Shown piece after piece: positions 1,186 through 36,134 of a DNA stretch of 64,000 nucleotides. The stretch covers positions 5,208,001 to 5,272,000 of the forward strand of contig NZ_CP043761.1 in the NCBI RefSeq assembly GCF_008386395.1, written 5' to 3'. Source of the stretch: Paenibacillus sp. 37. Its GTDB lineage: Bacteria; Bacillota; Bacilli; Paenibacillales; Paenibacillaceae. Under the pieces are notes generated by a model. The model did no database searches and was not told the DNA's origin. It saw only the letters and a program-made list of their open reading frames with translations. Position numbers and translations under genes: made by a program. The first letter of the stretch is position 1. Each line of letters opens with the position of its first letter.

Positions 1186-2937
1186 CTAGCTAGATATGGC
1201 TACCCAGTGCCCTTCCGTGACTTCTACCCACTTGGAATGCTCGAGATTATAACGGTCCTCTACTTCAACATTTTCTCTAGGTGTTTCTCTGCCAACATGT
1301 CTCTTTTTCTTCGCTTCTACCGCTGGATCAGGCACAGGAATCGCAGACAGCAATGCCTTGGTGTAGGCATGTTGTGGGTTGGAATATAGTTCCTCACTCT
1401 CGGCCAGCTCTACAATTTTCCCGTTATACATCACAGCCACTCGGTCACTGATATGTTTAACCATGGACAAGTCATGTGCGATGAAGAGATACGTCAATCC
1501 GAGTCGCTGCTGCAACTCTTCAAGCAATTGTACGATCTGAGCCTGTATCGACACATCCAGTGCAGACAGTGGTTCGTCACATACGATGAATTCCGGCTCC
1601 ACAGCCAGAGCTCGCGCTATACCGATCCGCTGTCTTTGTCCTCCCGAGAATTCATGTGGATAACGCTGCGCATGGGTAGGATCAAGTCCCACCATCTCCA
1701 GCAATTCCTCCACACGCTTCTCCCGCTGAGATGCTGTACCTGCAAGTTGATGAATATCAAGGGCTTCTCCAATGATATCCATAATCCTCATTTTGGGATT
1801 CAGCGATGCATAAGGGTCCTGGAAAATAATCTGCATATGTCTGCGCATCGTTTTCATCTCCGAAGCTGATAAGCGATTGAGCGGGACTCCTTTAAACAGT
1901 ACATCTCCACCTGTTGGCTCATGCAACCGCAGAATCGCACGCCCCGTGGTTGATTTTCCGCTGCCGGATTCCCCTACAACGCCGAGCGTCTCTCCTTGAC
2001 GAATATGGAAACTGATATCATTTACGGCCTTTAAGGTATTGCCTTTCCCCAGATTAAAATGTTGTTTGAGCGACTTCACCTCAAGCAATGGCTGATCATC
2101 CTCGAGATCTCTTGGGACCAACGATACCGGTTTTGGCTTTTTCTTCTGATCCAGACGTGGTAATGCATTCAGAAGCCTGATCGTATACGGGTGTTTGGGA
2201 TTAGCAAAAATCTCTGTTGTCGTCCCGGTTTCCACAATCTGTCCTTCTTTCATCACAACAACCCGATCACACATGCCTGCTACTACGCCCAAATCATGGG
2301 TGATCAGAATAATAGATGTCCCAAGTTGCTCTTGCATATCTTTCATCAAATTCAGAATCTGTGCCTGAATTGTAACGTCCAGTGCGGTTGTCGGCTCATC
2401 GGCAATGAGCAATTCAGGACGACAAGCAAGTGCAATACCGATCATGACTCGCTGGCGCATGCCTCCAGAGAATTCGTGCGGATACTGGTTGTAGCGGATT
2501 TCACTGCGAGTTATCCCCACCCGCTCCATCATCGCGGTCGCCTGCTTCTTGGCTTCCCTTTTGGACACCTTCTGGTGTTTGATCAGACTCTCGGAGATCT
2601 GTTTCCCCACTTTAATGGTCGGATTAAGGGAACTCATCGGGTCCTGAAAGATCATGCCAATATCACGTCCACGGATACTCTCCATCTCTTTCTGCGTTTT
2701 ATTGGCTAGGTCGACACCTTTAAATAGAATCTCTCCCTTTTTCATCTGTGAAGGCGGCGATGCAAGCAGCCTCATAATGGAACGTGCGGTTACACTTTTT
2801 CCACTTCCCGATTCTCCTACAATACCTAGCGTCTCACCTTTTCGTACTTCAAAACTTACTTCTCGCACTGCCTGAAACTCACTCTCTCCAGAATGAAAAG
2901 AGACCGATAGATCATTCACTTTCAGTAAAGGTTCCAT
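1186..2937 (-). CDS. Fused double-ATPase subunit of a peptide/opine/nickel-type ABC transporter
   Basis: About 583 residues with two complete Dpp/Opp-type ATPase domains in tandem, like a DppD-DppF fusion. The first has Walker [11 protein letters not shown], signature SGGMRQR and Walker [15 protein letters not shown]; the second has [17 protein letters not shown] and [14 protein letters not shown]. Each carries the oligopeptide-ABC C-terminal extension. It should power import through the two permeases encoded divergently at 3081 and 4564. I chose the ATG at 2937 because GGTGAT precedes it and homology begins at MEPLLKV. A TTG at 2985 preceded by AAGGT, or an ATG at 2955, would lengthen the protein by 16 or 6 residues. 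Two-ATPase fusions are known in this family. The substrate is unknown. Confidence 0.93.
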
Positions 2938-3080
2938 GCCATCACCAGCTCTCATCCGTTTTTTCACATACCCATATGTATACAATTATTACCTTGACAA
3001 TTGTTTAGACCCTAAATAATATATACTATATCAATCGGAATAATGCAATTTAAACCTGAATGAAAGGAGGTGCGCTTGGT

Positions 3081-4523
3081 TTGAATCTTGCAGAAAGCAG
3101 CAGACTCTCGCGGTTGGTACATAATTTAAGCTTTATTTATGGCAAAATGCTGCTTCATCCTTCCTACCGATATGTTTTGTTCATTCTTGGATTACCGATC
3201 AATCTGGTCGTGTTTCTAATATGGCGTTCAAATCGAAAAAATGACGGCTGGGTAGCTGCCAGACAGGCGGCTGAGCAAGAACTGCTCGCTTCTTCCTACC
3301 GGAACAGGCTGAAGTTGGAAGTGGAAGAACAACTGCGTCGCAAACATCGTTTTTTCCAGCAACAGGTCAGTGAGGAAGAATTCAAACGTCAGACTGAGGA
3401 ATGGTTGGAGGAAAGTGTTCAGACAGAGTTGAAGGAGCGGACTTCTCGCATACTTCAGGAACAGGGAAGTCACCGTCTTACGATGGCTGATACATTCCAC
3501 TCACTGATCGACAAACCATGGTTTTTCACGATATCCCTTATTCCCGGCTTTCTGATGTATGGCATCCTCTTTTTGTATGGAAACCCCTATCTAAAGTACA
3601 TATTTGAAAGAATACTGATGACGGTATTTGTCATTCTGGGCGTAGCCACACTCGTATTTACGATTTTGTATCTGTCTCCGTTTAACCCGGCAGCTAACAT
3701 TCTCGGAGAGACAGCAACGCAGGAACAGATTGCCGCATTCAATCAGGTGTATGGCTTGGATCAGCCTTATCTTACACAGCTCTGGAACAATATCAAGGGA
3801 GTTGCCCTCTTCGATCTTGGCAAGTCTTTTGCAGGAAATGAAGACGTAACAGCAACGATTGCAAGGAAGTTTCCAATTACATTGACCCTCGCGGTCATCT
3901 CCCTGCTGTTAGCACTTGTCATTGCATTACCCATCGGTATTATCTCAGCGATTAAGCCTAATTCGTGGTTCGATTATACGTTCATGTTCATTGCTCTGAT
4001 TGGATTATCGATCCCGAATTTCTGGCAAGGACTTATTTTCATTCTGAATTTTTCAATCAAAATGCAGTGGCTTCCCGCTACCTTCAACCCGCAGAACTGG
4101 CTGTCGATCATTATGCCAACCATTGTACTGGGTACGGGACTCACAGCTGCGGTGGCCCGGATGACCCGGTCTTCTACACTGGAAGTCATTCATGAGGATT
4201 ATGTGATGACTGCCCGCGCCAAGGGGTTAAGCGAACGTCAAGTCATGCTGAAACACGCAGTACGTAATGCATTGATCCCCATCGTAACGGTGGTTGGACT
4301 TCAATTCGGAGCCATGTTGGGTGGAGCAGCAGTGACGGAGAAAGTGTTTAATATCAGCGGTCTCGGCAGCTATATTGTGGATAAACAATTTATCCCCGAT
4401 ATTCCGAGTATCATGGGCGGAGTAATCTACACAGCAATTACGATCTCCATTATCAATGTAGCGGTTGATCTGCTGTATGCTTTTATTGATCCAAGAGTGC
4501 GCTCCAAGATGAAACAATATTAA
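3081..4523 (+). CDS. ABC transporter permease, DppB/OppB type, with N-terminal extension
   Basis: A DppB-like permease begins around residue 175 (ERILMTVFVILGVATLVF) and contains the expected periplasmic loop (NQVYGLDQPYLTQLWNNIKG) and the EAA coupling loop (TARAKGLSERQVMLKHAVRN). Ahead of it are about 170 extra residues: one membrane segment near the start, a long Glu/Gln/Arg/Lys-rich helix likely to form a coiled coil (about residues 50-130), and a second membrane segment around WFFTISLIPGFLMYG. Ordinary DppB proteins are about 300-340 residues; this one is about 480. AAAGGAGGT at 3063-3071 points to the TTG at 3081 rather than the upstream in-frame ATG at 3060. It heads an operon with the next two genes. 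Confidence 0.9.
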   Translation: MNLAESSRLSRLVHNLSFIYGKMLLHPSYRYVLFILGLPINLVVFLIWRSNRKNDGWVAARQAAEQELLASSYRNRLKLEVEEQLRRKHRFFQQQVSEEEFKRQTEEWLEESVQTELKERTSRILQEQGSHRLTMADTFHSLIDKPWFFTISLIPGFLMYGILFLYGNPYLKYIFERILMTVFVILGVATLVFTILYLSPFNPAANILGETATQEQIAAFNQVYGLDQPYLTQLWNNIKGVALFDLGKSFAGNEDVTATIARKFPITLTLAVISLLLALVIALPIGIISAIKPNSWFDYTFMFIALIGLSIPNFWQGLIFILNFSIKMQWLPATFNPQNWLSIIMPTIVLGTGLTAAVARMTRSSTLEVIHEDYVMTARAKGLSERQVMLKHAVRNALIPIVTVVGLQFGAMLGGAAVTEKVFNISGLGSYIVDKQFIPDIPSIMGGVIYTAITISIINVAVDLLYAFIDPRVRSKMKQY

Positions 4524-4563: not shown

Positions 4564-6075
4564 ATGACAAACTCGTCTTTAACACAAGAAATGCGTTTTC
4601 GGCTTAAGTCTTCTCGAGAATACAGTCAGGCCAGCTTCGCCTGGATCACGTCCCTTCTCTTGACTGCCTTGTTGCTGTTCAACAGTTATGACTGGAGTGA
4701 GCAGACGTTCAAACCATTTCTGCTAACGATACTTGGGATCTATGTATTCTTCACACTGGTTCAAAGTATCATCACCCTTCGGATTCGAAAAGACTTGATC
4801 CGTACGGGTACGGTCACTGCTCTGACTCGCAGGATCGCCTGGGTTCAGCTACTTGCTATCATTTCTGGCAATATATTTATCGTAACGGCAGCCTTTCATC
4901 TGATTCGAAAAGCCAGAAATGTGGAGTATACCTTTGCGGTGTATATGCTGTTAACCCAGCTGTTCGTTATCGGTGTATCTGCGTTAAATGTTTTCAAACC
5001 CTATGTGGCTGATAACTTTCTGCCAGCCATGGCGGTGCTCATATTTATTCTCGTCATTGACCTGGTCGTACTGATTATCGTATCCCGATATAACGCGACC
5101 TCGATCCTCCCTCGCTGGATGATCGGTGTCAGTGTAGTGCTGATTCTGACCTCAATCACAGGTAATGTATTTGCACTATTGCTCGGCATTTCCATCATTG
5201 GACGCATTCGCAGACAGGGGAAACAAAAATCAAACTTCTGGAATGATCTGTGGGAGCGACTTGCTCCAAATATGACTGCCATGTCCGGTTTGTTTTTTAT
5301 CATTTTTCTGTTCTCGATATCGATCTGCAGCTTTTTTACCTTTGACTACAGCATGGCTGTGGAAAATAACTACTCGGCGCTGCTTCAACCCCCTTCCCTG
5401 GCGTATCCGTTGGGAACGGACGATTTCGGACGATGTTTATTTTCCCGGATTGTATTTGGTGCCCGAATCTCCTTAATCGTAGGTTGCATGTCGACCATCA
5501 TTCCAGTGTTGATCGGTGGAGTCCTCGGAGCATTCTCCGGCTTCTACGGAAGGCATACGGATAACATCATCATGCGGCTGCTCGATATTCTCTATGCCAT
5601 TCCGGGAATTCTGCTTGCCATTGCGATTATTGCGGCGTTTGGAGCCAATACGGTCAATCTCATTCTGGCGCTGAGTCTGGGTTCGATTCCAACTTACGCC
5701 CGTACCATGAGAGCCAGTGTGCTCTATGTTTCTACTTTTGAATTTGTGGAAGCTGCACGTGCACTGGGGTACAACAATCGTACAATTATTTTCAAACACA
5801 TTATTCCCAACTCCCTTGCGCCCATGATTATCAAGTCCACACTCACGATTGGTGGAGCTGTTATCGCTACCAGCAGTTTGAGTTATCTGGGACTCGGCGT
5901 GGAGCCGCATATTCCGGAATGGGGTAACATTCTGAAGCTCGGCAGTACATATCTGGAGACCCACTCTTATCTGGCGATTTATCCAGGTTTGGCTATTATT
6001 CTGCTGGTTCTTTCGTTTAACTTTCTCGGTGACGGTCTGCGTGATGCGCTTGATCCCAAGCTGGAGAAGGCCTAA
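4564..6075 (+). CDS. ABC transporter permease, DppC/OppC type, with membrane-rich N-terminal extension
   Basis: 503 residues. The second half is a standard DppC permease: the LAYPLGTDDFGRCLFSRIVF motif, then MSTIIPVLIGGVLGAFSGFY and the EAA loop EAARALGYNNRTIIFKHIIP. The first ~220 residues are extra and hold five or six predicted membrane segments, including SFAWITSLLLTALLLF and FLPAMAVLIFILVIDLVVLI. DppC proteins are usually about 300 residues. The start is supported by GAAGGTG upstream. It lies 40 bp after the DppB-type gene and 75 bp before the binding protein, so it pairs with both and with the divergent ATPase. Both permeases carrying extra N-terminal membrane parts suggests a specialised subfamily. 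Confidence 0.9.
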   Translation: MTNSSLTQEMRFRLKSSREYSQASFAWITSLLLTALLLFNSYDWSEQTFKPFLLTILGIYVFFTLVQSIITLRIRKDLIRTGTVTALTRRIAWVQLLAIISGNIFIVTAAFHLIRKARNVEYTFAVYMLLTQLFVIGVSALNVFKPYVADNFLPAMAVLIFILVIDLVVLIIVSRYNATSILPRWMIGVSVVLILTSITGNVFALLLGISIIGRIRRQGKQKSNFWNDLWERLAPNMTAMSGLFFIIFLFSISICSFFTFDYSMAVENNYSALLQPPSLAYPLGTDDFGRCLFSRIVFGARISLIVGCMSTIIPVLIGGVLGAFSGFYGRHTDNIIMRLLDILYAIPGILLAIAIIAAFGANTVNLILALSLGSIPTYARTMRASVLYVSTFEFVEAARALGYNNRTIIFKHIIPNSLAPMIIKSTLTIGGAVIATSSLSYLGLGVEPHIPEWGNILKLGSTYLETHSYLAIYPGLAIILLVLSFNFLGDGLRDALDPKLEKA

Positions 6076-6149
6076 ATGATTTGTTGAAATGAATGATATA
6101 GAAAAAAAGAAATCACACATCACACATTCAAGATATGGAGGGTAATCCC

Positions 6150-7970
6150 ATGAAAAAACGTACACTGATCTCATTGCTATTAATTCTCGTCATTGTGATT
6201 TCCGGCTGCAGTGTAAAAACGAAAACCGAATCCCAGGCGGAGACCGCACCAGCGGACACAACGGAAACTGCACAAAAACCGGCTGACATTGAACTGCTCG
6301 CCATGAGTTCTTCCGAAAATGATGTAAACATTGTACGCGACCAGCTGACTAAAAACGGCTTCAATGTGAAGTTGAATCTTCAGCCGGATTACGGTAGCTT
6401 CAAATCCCAGCAGGATGCAGGAAATTATGACATTGCCTTGTCCAGCTGGACCACGGTAACGGGAAATCCTGATTATGCGGTGCGTTCCCTTTTCAAAACA
6501 GGTGGAGATTACAGTATCCTCGCAGATGCGGAACTTGATAAACTCATCGATCAGGCAGCTACTCAAACTCCAGATGAGTACAAAGACACGTACAAACAAT
6601 TGGAAGATCGCTTGGTAACGGATCAGGCGTATATCGCTCCTCTGTACATTTCCCTAAAGAGTCAGGCTGTGAACCAAGACATTCTGAATGTTGACACCGT
6701 TCGTCTCTCCAAATCCCGCGCCATGGCTTGGGAACCGATTGAGTTCAAGGACCGCTCCAAAAATGCCAAAGATCCGTTGATTCTGACGCAAAGCGCATCC
6801 GTACTGACTTCCCTTGATCCAATCAAAGGAAACGACGGCTCCATCAACCAGTTGAATACCAATATGTATGTACGCCTCGTTAACTTGACAGATGACGATC
6901 AACTGACAGCAGAAGGATCACTGTCCCATAATTTCAGCATTGCTGAAGGTAATTCCGACTATTACTTCATTCTCAGAGACGATATCAACTTTGCGAAGAT
7001 TGATAACAAAAAAGCGGTAGATACAGGAGAACGTGTTGGTGCAGATGATGTGATCTTCTCCCTGGATCGTGCTAAGAATAAAGATTCCGTTCCGGATCAC
7101 CGGACGTACAGTCTGCATGAACACATCAAAGAAGCTGAGGTTGTAACGGATCTGAGTGCATTAAAATCCATCAAACAATCCAGCGGCAACGGCACAATAC
7201 TCGAAGCATTGGAACAAGGATTGGGCAGCAAAATTACAGAACTCGTGACGGACAAAACCAAAGCAGATAATAGTGCAGGTAAATATCAGGTCGTTAAACT
7301 GACAACAACTGAACCTTTCCCGCAAGTACTGAACTACCTGGCTCACCAATCTGCGGGTATCGTGTCCAAAAAACAGGTGGAGAGCATCAACACATATGAT
7401 GTAGCTTCCTTTGACGTCAACAAAGATATTCCTTACGGTGATCAGAACACGGTGACTGAAGGCGCAGCATACAATAACACCCTTTATACTAGCGGACCTT
7501 ATATTTTGTCTTATAAAAATGACTATGAAGGTGTATTCTTAAAAAATCCGGCTTACCGGAAAGGCACGGAAGATGAGCCAAAAATTGCTCAGGTTAACGT
7601 CCGATTCATCGCGGATGCAGACAGCGCCCTCTCTGCTCTTCGCAGCAGTGAAGTTCACTTATACTACGGTGTACCCGAAACAAAGTATGACATCATCGAA
7701 AATGACAGCAAACTGAAACTGCAAAGTCTGCCAAGTAACGCTGTCTCCTATCTGTTGTTCAACACGGCCAATCGTGAAGTTGCCAAGAGCAGTGACCTGA
7801 GAAAAGCCGTGCTGTACTCCATTAATCAGGATGAGATTTTGAGTTTCTACAAGAACAACAAACTCAAAGCATACTCCACAGTAAGCCCGCTCGTTCAGAC
7901 CGGGAATGAATTAAAAGCTGATCCTGCAAAAGTAAAAGAATTCTTGAGCAACTATAACGCCTCCAAATAA
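6150..7970 (+). CDS. Lipoprotein solute-binding protein (SBP family 5) in circularly permuted order
   Basis: 606 residues, with lipobox VISGC near residue 20. After a linker, residues ~46-198 match the C-terminal lobe of family 5 binding proteins (GFNVKLNL, GNYDIALSSW, ELDKLIDQA, DQAYIAPLYISLK). Residues ~208-606 then match the N-terminal part: LTSLDPI, a LRDDINFA segment, VGADDVIFSLDRA, LYTSGPYIL, LKNPAYRKG and LRKAVLYSINQDE. The protein stops where a normal family member would enter its C-terminal lobe. The order is therefore C-lobe then N-part, a circular permutation. The start is the ATG at 6150, preceded by GGAGGG. It is presumably the capture protein for the adjacent permeases. The ligand is unknown. 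Confidence 0.9.
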   Translation: MKKRTLISLLLILVIVISGCSVKTKTESQAETAPADTTETAQKPADIELLAMSSSENDVNIVRDQLTKNGFNVKLNLQPDYGSFKSQQDAGNYDIALSSWTTVTGNPDYAVRSLFKTGGDYSILADAELDKLIDQAATQTPDEYKDTYKQLEDRLVTDQAYIAPLYISLKSQAVNQDILNVDTVRLSKSRAMAWEPIEFKDRSKNAKDPLILTQSASVLTSLDPIKGNDGSINQLNTNMYVRLVNLTDDDQLTAEGSLSHNFSIAEGNSDYYFILRDDINFAKIDNKKAVDTGERVGADDVIFSLDRAKNKDSVPDHRTYSLHEHIKEAEVVTDLSALKSIKQSSGNGTILEALEQGLGSKITELVTDKTKADNSAGKYQVVKLTTTEPFPQVLNYLAHQSAGIVSKKQVESINTYDVASFDVNKDIPYGDQNTVTEGAAYNNTLYTSGPYILSYKNDYEGVFLKNPAYRKGTEDEPKIAQVNVRFIADADSALSALRSSEVHLYYGVPETKYDIIENDSKLKLQSLPSNAVSYLLFNTANREVAKSSDLRKAVLYSINQDEILSFYKNNKLKAYSTVSPLVQTGNELKADPAKVKEFLSNYNASK

Positions 7971-35946: not shown

Positions 35947-36134
35947 TTTACACTGCGCACTTCGATGACAGAATAACCTTCCGATCGCTGTTATCCCCAG
36001 ATTTTTTGATTTTCTTTTCTCAAAGGGGAAAATCCGGGGATAGCGTATGCTTCCGATGTAGCTTTCTTGCAGAAAGCTTGTAGGCGAGCGCTTCGCTTCT
36101 TCAGGTTTTTTCTGTCCTCTCCGTTTGGTGTAAA
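35947..36134. repeat. 188-bp inverted-repeat-bounded intergenic element (MITE-like)
   Basis: The element begins TTTACAC with GACAGAA shortly inside, and ends with the complement in mirrored order (TTCTGTC then GTGTAAA). Its interior has a large hairpin (TATCCCC...GGGGATA, about 35990-36046) and a second one around AGCTTTCTTGCAGAAAGCTT (36059-36078). No coding capacity is seen. It sits in the gap between the GH30 and GH35 genes. A second, half-length copy of its left end follows at 36221. Confidence 0.6.

Follow-up and report, generated by a model that had tools for sequence, protein, structure and literature searches.

A permuted segment order in a family 5 binding protein

The 64,000-nucleotide stretch of the Paenibacillus sp. 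37 genome analyzed here (contig NZ_CP043761.1, positions 5,208,001 to 5,272,000; "the window" in the following) contains a forward-strand run of genes for a DppB-type permease, a DppC-type permease and, as the last gene, a substrate-binding lipoprotein of family 5 of the ATP-binding cassette (ABC) transporters (Table 1). We conclude with considerable confidence that this binding protein of a Dpp/Opp-type importer is circularly permuted within one predicted two-lobed fold, and that this layout has had several origins, likely by gene duplication and trimming. Membership in the family (PF00496) is apparent from a Pfam match of 127 bits against a curated cut-off of 32.4, an export signal with lipobox, linked Dpp/Opp-type permeases and ATPases, and a predicted complete two-lobed fold; the colinear N-to-C order that is usual in family 5 without defining it is absent, and the protein is therefore classed as a permuted variant. 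It has its family, predicted two-lobed fold, lipoprotein signal, and DppB/DppC and ATPase neighbors in common with canonical members (cluster C; DppA, OppA, GsiB, and NikA) but differs from them in its swapped segments and in new ends that lie inside the C-lobe. Named close relatives are mostly annotated as "ABC transporter substrate-binding protein".

Sequence comparisons together with predicted structures place residues 46 to 207 on approximately positions 340 to 496 of DppA and residues 213 to 611 on positions 1 to 342, which confirms the permuted segment order claimed in a preliminary description of this gene. The SBP_bac_5 match falls into two stretches, the best of which aligns residues 268 to 604 with profile positions 11 to 273, and a genome scan found the piece matching profile positions 302 to 366 upstream of the piece matching 12 to 280. 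Alignments to relatives in the Protein Data Bank were off-diagonal, and the single continuous diagonal that a dot plot of an ordinary family member should give was not seen. A profile of residues 46 to 207 had 22 matches at E of at most 0.1, all of them in the C-terminal part of family 5-type structures; this profile first held canonical sisters too, and the result given here is from its repetition with the window protein's own permuted group (group A) alone. Against a hidden Markov model (HMM) built from 45 rows of canonical proteins only, the best stretch of the mature window protein scored 66 bits in native order (164 when summed over stretches) and 126 bits when rotated, with a broad plateau. 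The same rotation raised the score of a Thermaerobacter-type protein (L048) from 452 to 601 and that of P0241 from 368 to 515, and three controls in canonical order (P0242 and the held-out L004 and L163) scored highest at their native start or at most 9 residues away from it. Among solved relatives (60 of 112 listed), the match of the N-terminal part began within the first 60 chain residues in 60/60, that is, in canonical order. With two complementary segments swapped inside one continuous protein, the window protein is a natural circular permutant in the usual definition.

The chain had been described as ending where a normal member would enter the C-lobe; judged by the position at which we take the C-lobe of DppA to begin, it is instead cut inside this lobe. 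Past the helix equivalent to DPAKVKEFL, canonical proteins continue into the next beta strand. At the joint between the segments, which was placed exactly by eye, WEPIEFKDRSKNAK precedes DPLILTQ. The open reading frame probably starts at position 6150, which gives a protein of 606 amino acids, and the lipobox cysteine Cys25 is invariant across an 18-row alignment.

Table 1. Features of the permuted binding-protein locus, in positions of the window
Feature	Positions	Strand	Basis or remark
Family 5 substrate-binding lipoprotein, circularly permuted	6135..7970	+	611 amino acids; SBP_bac_5 127 bits, cut-off 32.4, two stretches
Signal peptide and lipobox VISGC ending at Cys25	6150..6209	+	Sequence
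Flexible tether, residues 26-51	6210..6287	+	Predicted local distance difference test (pLDDT) <50 at residues 22-44; low conservation
Residues 52-207, canonical C-terminal third (DppA about 340-496)	6288..6755	+	Sequence profile and predicted structure
Joint, residues 199-212, old C-terminus to old mature N-terminus	6729..6770	+	Alignment
Residues 213-611, canonical N-terminal two thirds (DppA 1-342)	6771..7967	+	Sequence and predicted structure
New C-terminus, after helix DPAKVKEFL	7920..7970	+	Pfam match stops at 273
DppC-type permease with extra N-terminal part of ~220 amino acids	4564..6075	+	Six hydrophobic windows, Kyte-Doolittle scan
DppB-type permease with extra N-terminal part of ~175 amino acids	3060..4523	+	Charged stretch flanked by two hydrophobic windows
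Fused double ATPase (DppD-DppF type), 599 amino acids, divergently transcribed	1186..2985	-	Domain match; partner in group A loci

Predicted fold

The structure model of the window protein (pLDDT 82, predicted template modeling score 0.79) is consistent with a single two-lobed family 5 fold, so that the ligand-binding fold is predicted to be kept, as had been anticipated. Its listed matches are family 5-type proteins by title. In these matches, residues 213 to 611 fall on positions 1 to 342 of the 507 positions of DppA and residues 46 to 207 on positions 340 to 496, and the two parts are thus complementary with hardly any overlap. A second model was made because fold searches with the whole model run sequentially and cannot align both parts together.

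Spread and conservation of group A

The permuted order is found in all 120 listed of the 1397 homologues in group A, and a match is present in 97/296 sampled genomes of the window's taxonomic order (about a third), 94 of them with a match that is contiguous over nearly its full length (a TAG occurs in one) and three (G121, G147, and G080) with pieces only. This and the other genome counts (phylum-wide, group B, and 398-genome scans) consider no more than the 3 or 4 top candidates in each genome and are therefore undercounts. Named carriers include Paenibacillus, Cytobacillus, Brevibacillus, Neobacillus, Lederbergia, Saccharibacillus, and Sporosarcina. Among the group A loci that were kept for comparison (80 of 267 confirmed), the permuted gene lies beside DppB, DppC, and a fused DppD-DppF on the opposite strand in 80/80. 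An assembly artefact is ruled out by the listed homologues, the 97/296 genomes, and these 80 loci across several genera. Despite its presence in so many genomes of the order, routine annotation overlooks permuted family 5 proteins.

The ratio of nonsynonymous to synonymous substitution rates was 0.034 to 0.045 in four comparisons among close group A relatives (a fifth was saturated) and 0.06 to 0.16 in three comparisons within group B (see below), which indicates that selection on the permuted binding protein is purifying. Conservation at distant loci is higher for the binding protein than for the permeases (at L083, for example, 74% versus 64% and 66%), the reverse of the usual pattern in ABC importers.

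Group B, a second permuted clade

Searching the whole phylum turned up two distant matches that were contiguous, L048 and L049. They led to what we call group B (Thermaerobacter/Moorella-type), which is permuted in all 120 listed of 2808 homologues, includes Thermaerobacter, Carboxydochorda, and Neomoorella, and has near full-length permuted matches in 24/398 genomes. A permuted-profile scan of these 398 genomes, biased to the groups used as query, found contiguous permuted matches in at least 24 group B genomes, at least 4 group A genomes, and at least 1 genome of a third type, case C, described below. An in-frame TAG is present in one of the permuted group B loci, L189.

Group B also has sisters in canonical order that are up to 61% identical to it in the N-terminal part and up to 57% in the C-terminal part. 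Canonical order could be read from the open reading frames of 19/20 such sisters, the twentieth (L171) being cut by the contig end. Gene order was SC-SN-B-C in 22/22 permuted group B loci and SN-SC-B-C in 18/20 canonical sister loci (the other two had no permease on the fetched stretch), and the segment order therefore changed in place, within the same operon type. In trees of re-ordered sequences, the permuted group B proteins form one clade (100/99) nested in three successive canonical branches.

Case C and set D

The most closely matched pair of orders comes from case C, a protein permuted at Pfam position 278 that is represented by locus L203 in genome G660 and by its match P0241, which lies on another contig; the two contigs are perhaps from the same sample. 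In G660 the permuted gene is followed by DppB (315 amino acids), DppC (297 amino acids), DppD, and DppF. P0241 is 89% (281/315) and 87% (142/163) identical in its two parts to the canonical P0242 of Dethiobacter alkaliphilus, and the identity between the two proteins is 84% (26/31) over signal peptide and linker. At its joint, the old C-terminus WDAWIE is followed by the four residues DEDQ and the old mature start DLIIAIG. This layout, with a carried-over signal peptide and a joint of four residues, fits a tandem duplication with trimming.

In the wider family around case C, 14 of 120 listed proteins (7655 in all) are permuted. Thirteen proteins, which we call set D (P0250, P0257, P0259, P0262, and nine more), start at the helix PFxDVRVRQALNYAID and end with YIGFNLQ, and their cut is a different one, at the lobe crossover (Pfam position 208 in P0250). 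On a quick tree of 7/13 of these proteins, which was built without P0263, P0267, P0285, and P0288 (mismatch to the joint pattern) and without P0289 and P0291 (near-copies), they are scattered among canonical proteins with 4 changes, at least 2 of them forced by starred branches. This scatter suggests several origins or reversals.

Route of permutation, lipid anchor, and permeases

The most likely route to the permuted order would be an in-frame tandem gene duplication with trimming of both ends that occurred several times and left the signal peptide ahead of the C-terminal segment. The duplication and trimming of an ancestral gene that had been proposed for the window protein would thus fit, most clearly in the young case P0241. 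The resulting chain begins at the beta strand after the first C-lobe helices and proceeds to the old C-terminus, from where a short joint leads into the old mature N-terminus; it then crosses the N-lobe and stops inside the C-lobe. Once folded, the protein would close on its ligand like a Venus flytrap and pass it to the adjoining DppB/DppC/DppDF. The lipid tether would now be on the C-lobe side rather than on the N-lobe side, a change that was probably near neutral given the length and flexibility of the tether. We would only tentatively go further and propose that family 5 has a site prone to permutation where the first C-lobe helices give way to the next strand, with repeated switching of the order, perhaps in both directions (groups A, B, and case C at one site, set D at the lobe crossover), and with the anchor side being selected in some lineages.

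It seems unlikely that the permutation was adaptive in the sense that a lipid anchor on the C-lobe instead of the N-lobe side alters docking, as suggested for TpMglB-2. In favor of this reading, the lipobox pattern is satisfied by 116/120 listed group A proteins and by 14/14 permuted proteins of case C and set D, and the permeases of group A are enlarged; moreover, anchoring has been proposed as a cause of the permutation in another cluster, as far as the accessible text of that study goes (PMC4990184). However, 67/120 listed permuted proteins of group B have no lipobox by the pattern used (which misses some truncated starts, e.g., that of P0138), so that the swap persists without an anchor; the tether is predicted to be unstructured; and groups B and C mostly lack room for enlarged permeases. 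Canonical sisters of group B have a lipobox in the first 110 residues of 15/20 open reading frames, and the anchor was probably lost inside the permuted group B clade (e.g., in P0127 to P0131). The altered anchoring relative to the permease that the preliminary description had envisaged is therefore not a general explanation, and the lipid anchor as sole cause is weakened by the same group B proteins.

The extra N-terminal parts of the group A permeases, which span window positions 3060 to 3587 (DppB) and 4564 to 5223 (DppC) and have no matches to Pfam families, are widespread: the query was matched from before residue 60 in 78/80 (DppB) and 74/80 (DppC) group A loci. The same segment order had been expected beside extended DppB and DppC genes, and this expectation holds for group A but fails for case C, with its permeases of 315 and 297 amino acids, and for group B. 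Permuted group B loci have room for at most 87 extra codons before DppB (22/22) and at most 147 before DppC (21/22, with up to 320 at one locus); for groups B and C this comparison covers the sequence directly before the two genes, and extensions elsewhere were not looked for. A general link between permutation and enlarged DppB/DppC is ruled out by the permease sizes of case C and by the missing room in group B. The locus with up to 320 codons is one of the permuted group B loci L183 to L202, L051, and L052.

The accessible text of a study on E. coli Dpp (PMC12136057) describes a scoop of DppB that touches both lobes of DppA, and the docking surface therefore need not change upon permutation. 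The same text gives D436 (D408 in mature numbering) as the aspartate of DppA that binds the amino group of the ligand. By manual count on the 1dpp alignment, Val108 of the window protein aligns with this aspartate in a weak stretch of 6.4 bits, and the ligand may for this reason not be held as a dipeptide is in DppA.

Number of origins

Trees favor at least three independent origins of the permutation. The alignment had 82 rows, with 17/22 permuted group B loci plus 5 listed proteins, 19/20 canonical sisters, and 9 group A rows among them; 63 of the 82 rows were used for the main tree and for the tests of A+B, B+C, and (in a first version) A+C, with near-copies and three long rows from the window's own genome omitted, and a later test of A+C was run on 50 rows picked by hand, 6 of them canonical sisters of case C. 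A single clade was rejected for A+B (p = 0.0036), for B+C (p = 2.9e-56), and, once the canonical sisters of case C had been added, for A+C (p = 0.0085). Case C groups with P0242 and P0243 (100*, quick tree), and its independence follows from the canonical relative with 89% identity. An independent origin is likely also for group A, the weakest of the groups in this respect. Two points weigh against this count of origins: the first test did not reject A+C (p = 0.54), and the independence of group A rests on post hoc tests and a long branch.

A single ancient permutation inherited by A, B, and C, with their canonical sisters as reversions, would account for the cut site common to the three (Pfam positions 273, 278, and 278) and for the outcome of the first A+C test, and a scattered set D would be expected from reversions, too. 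We nevertheless regard this scenario as improbable, given that group B is nested within canonical branches, that case C is 89% identical to a canonical protein and clusters with P0242 and P0243, and that A+B, B+C and, with the sisters of case C added, A+C were rejected as clades; reversion would also need to restore the ancestral ends. Domain shuffling, in which a C-terminal segment taken from one binding protein was joined to the front of a truncated second one so that the parts have different parents, is, at best, very improbable. Group A is indeed so divergent that neither of its parts can be traced to one canonical parent, but the parts are complementary on DppA with hardly any overlap, and both parts of case C resemble one and the same parent (89% and 87%). 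An extra domain at residues 46 to 207 ahead of a complete family 5 fold, the outcome that would have spoken against a permutation, is ruled out as far as prediction reaches, since residues 213 to 611 cover only positions 1 to 342 of DppA and residues 46 to 207 match the remainder.

Relation to known permuted binding proteins

Outside family 5, permuted binding proteins are already known from other clusters. TpMglB-2 (Tp0684) of Treponema pallidum is presented in the accessible part of its description as a natural permutant among ABC binding lipoproteins ("Type Ic / Cluster Bc") that has kept its fold and for which glucose binding and a conformational change were demonstrated (PMC4990184). According to the same source it belongs to cluster B and has the first three strands of its N-lobe moved towards the end, whereas the window protein belongs to cluster C, where the permuted order probably arose several times and a canonical counterpart of one permuted protein is nearly identical to it. 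A permutation relationship among solute-binding folds has also been noted between glycine betaine- and molybdate-binding proteins with CPSARST (PMC2395249); as given in the available text, that case was found by structure at less than 24% identity, whereas in family 5 the relationship shows at sequence identities of up to 89% and within a single type of operon.

No report of circular permutation in family 5 was found among the top matches in open-licence PMC full text; in PMC2588589 the two matched terms have nothing to do with each other. The earlier remark that no description of such a layout was known stands for family 5 within this scope, but does not extend to binding proteins generally, for which other clusters have been published. 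Of note here are the apparent recurrence at one site and the existence of near-identical before/after pairs, the closest natural one found being P0242 (canonical) and P0241/L203 (permuted), which differ in segment order.

To our knowledge, the origin and neutrality of natural circular permutations have usually been assessed on pairs that have diverged too far for comparison. Here group B offers both orders in one operon position at identities of up to 61%, and case C offers them at 89% with a carried-over signal peptide; such pairs would let folding, ligand binding, and docking be tested.

Other observations in the genome and window

The window's own genome (7.6 Mb, Paenibacillus-like) has 14 further family 5 matches, and within it L012, L013, and L014 are family 5 matches in proteins of ~600 amino acids without a signal-like start, which we presume may be SgrR-type regulators. 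The sole tRNA gene found within the window is that of a tRNA-Ala (TGC) at positions 36032 to 36107.
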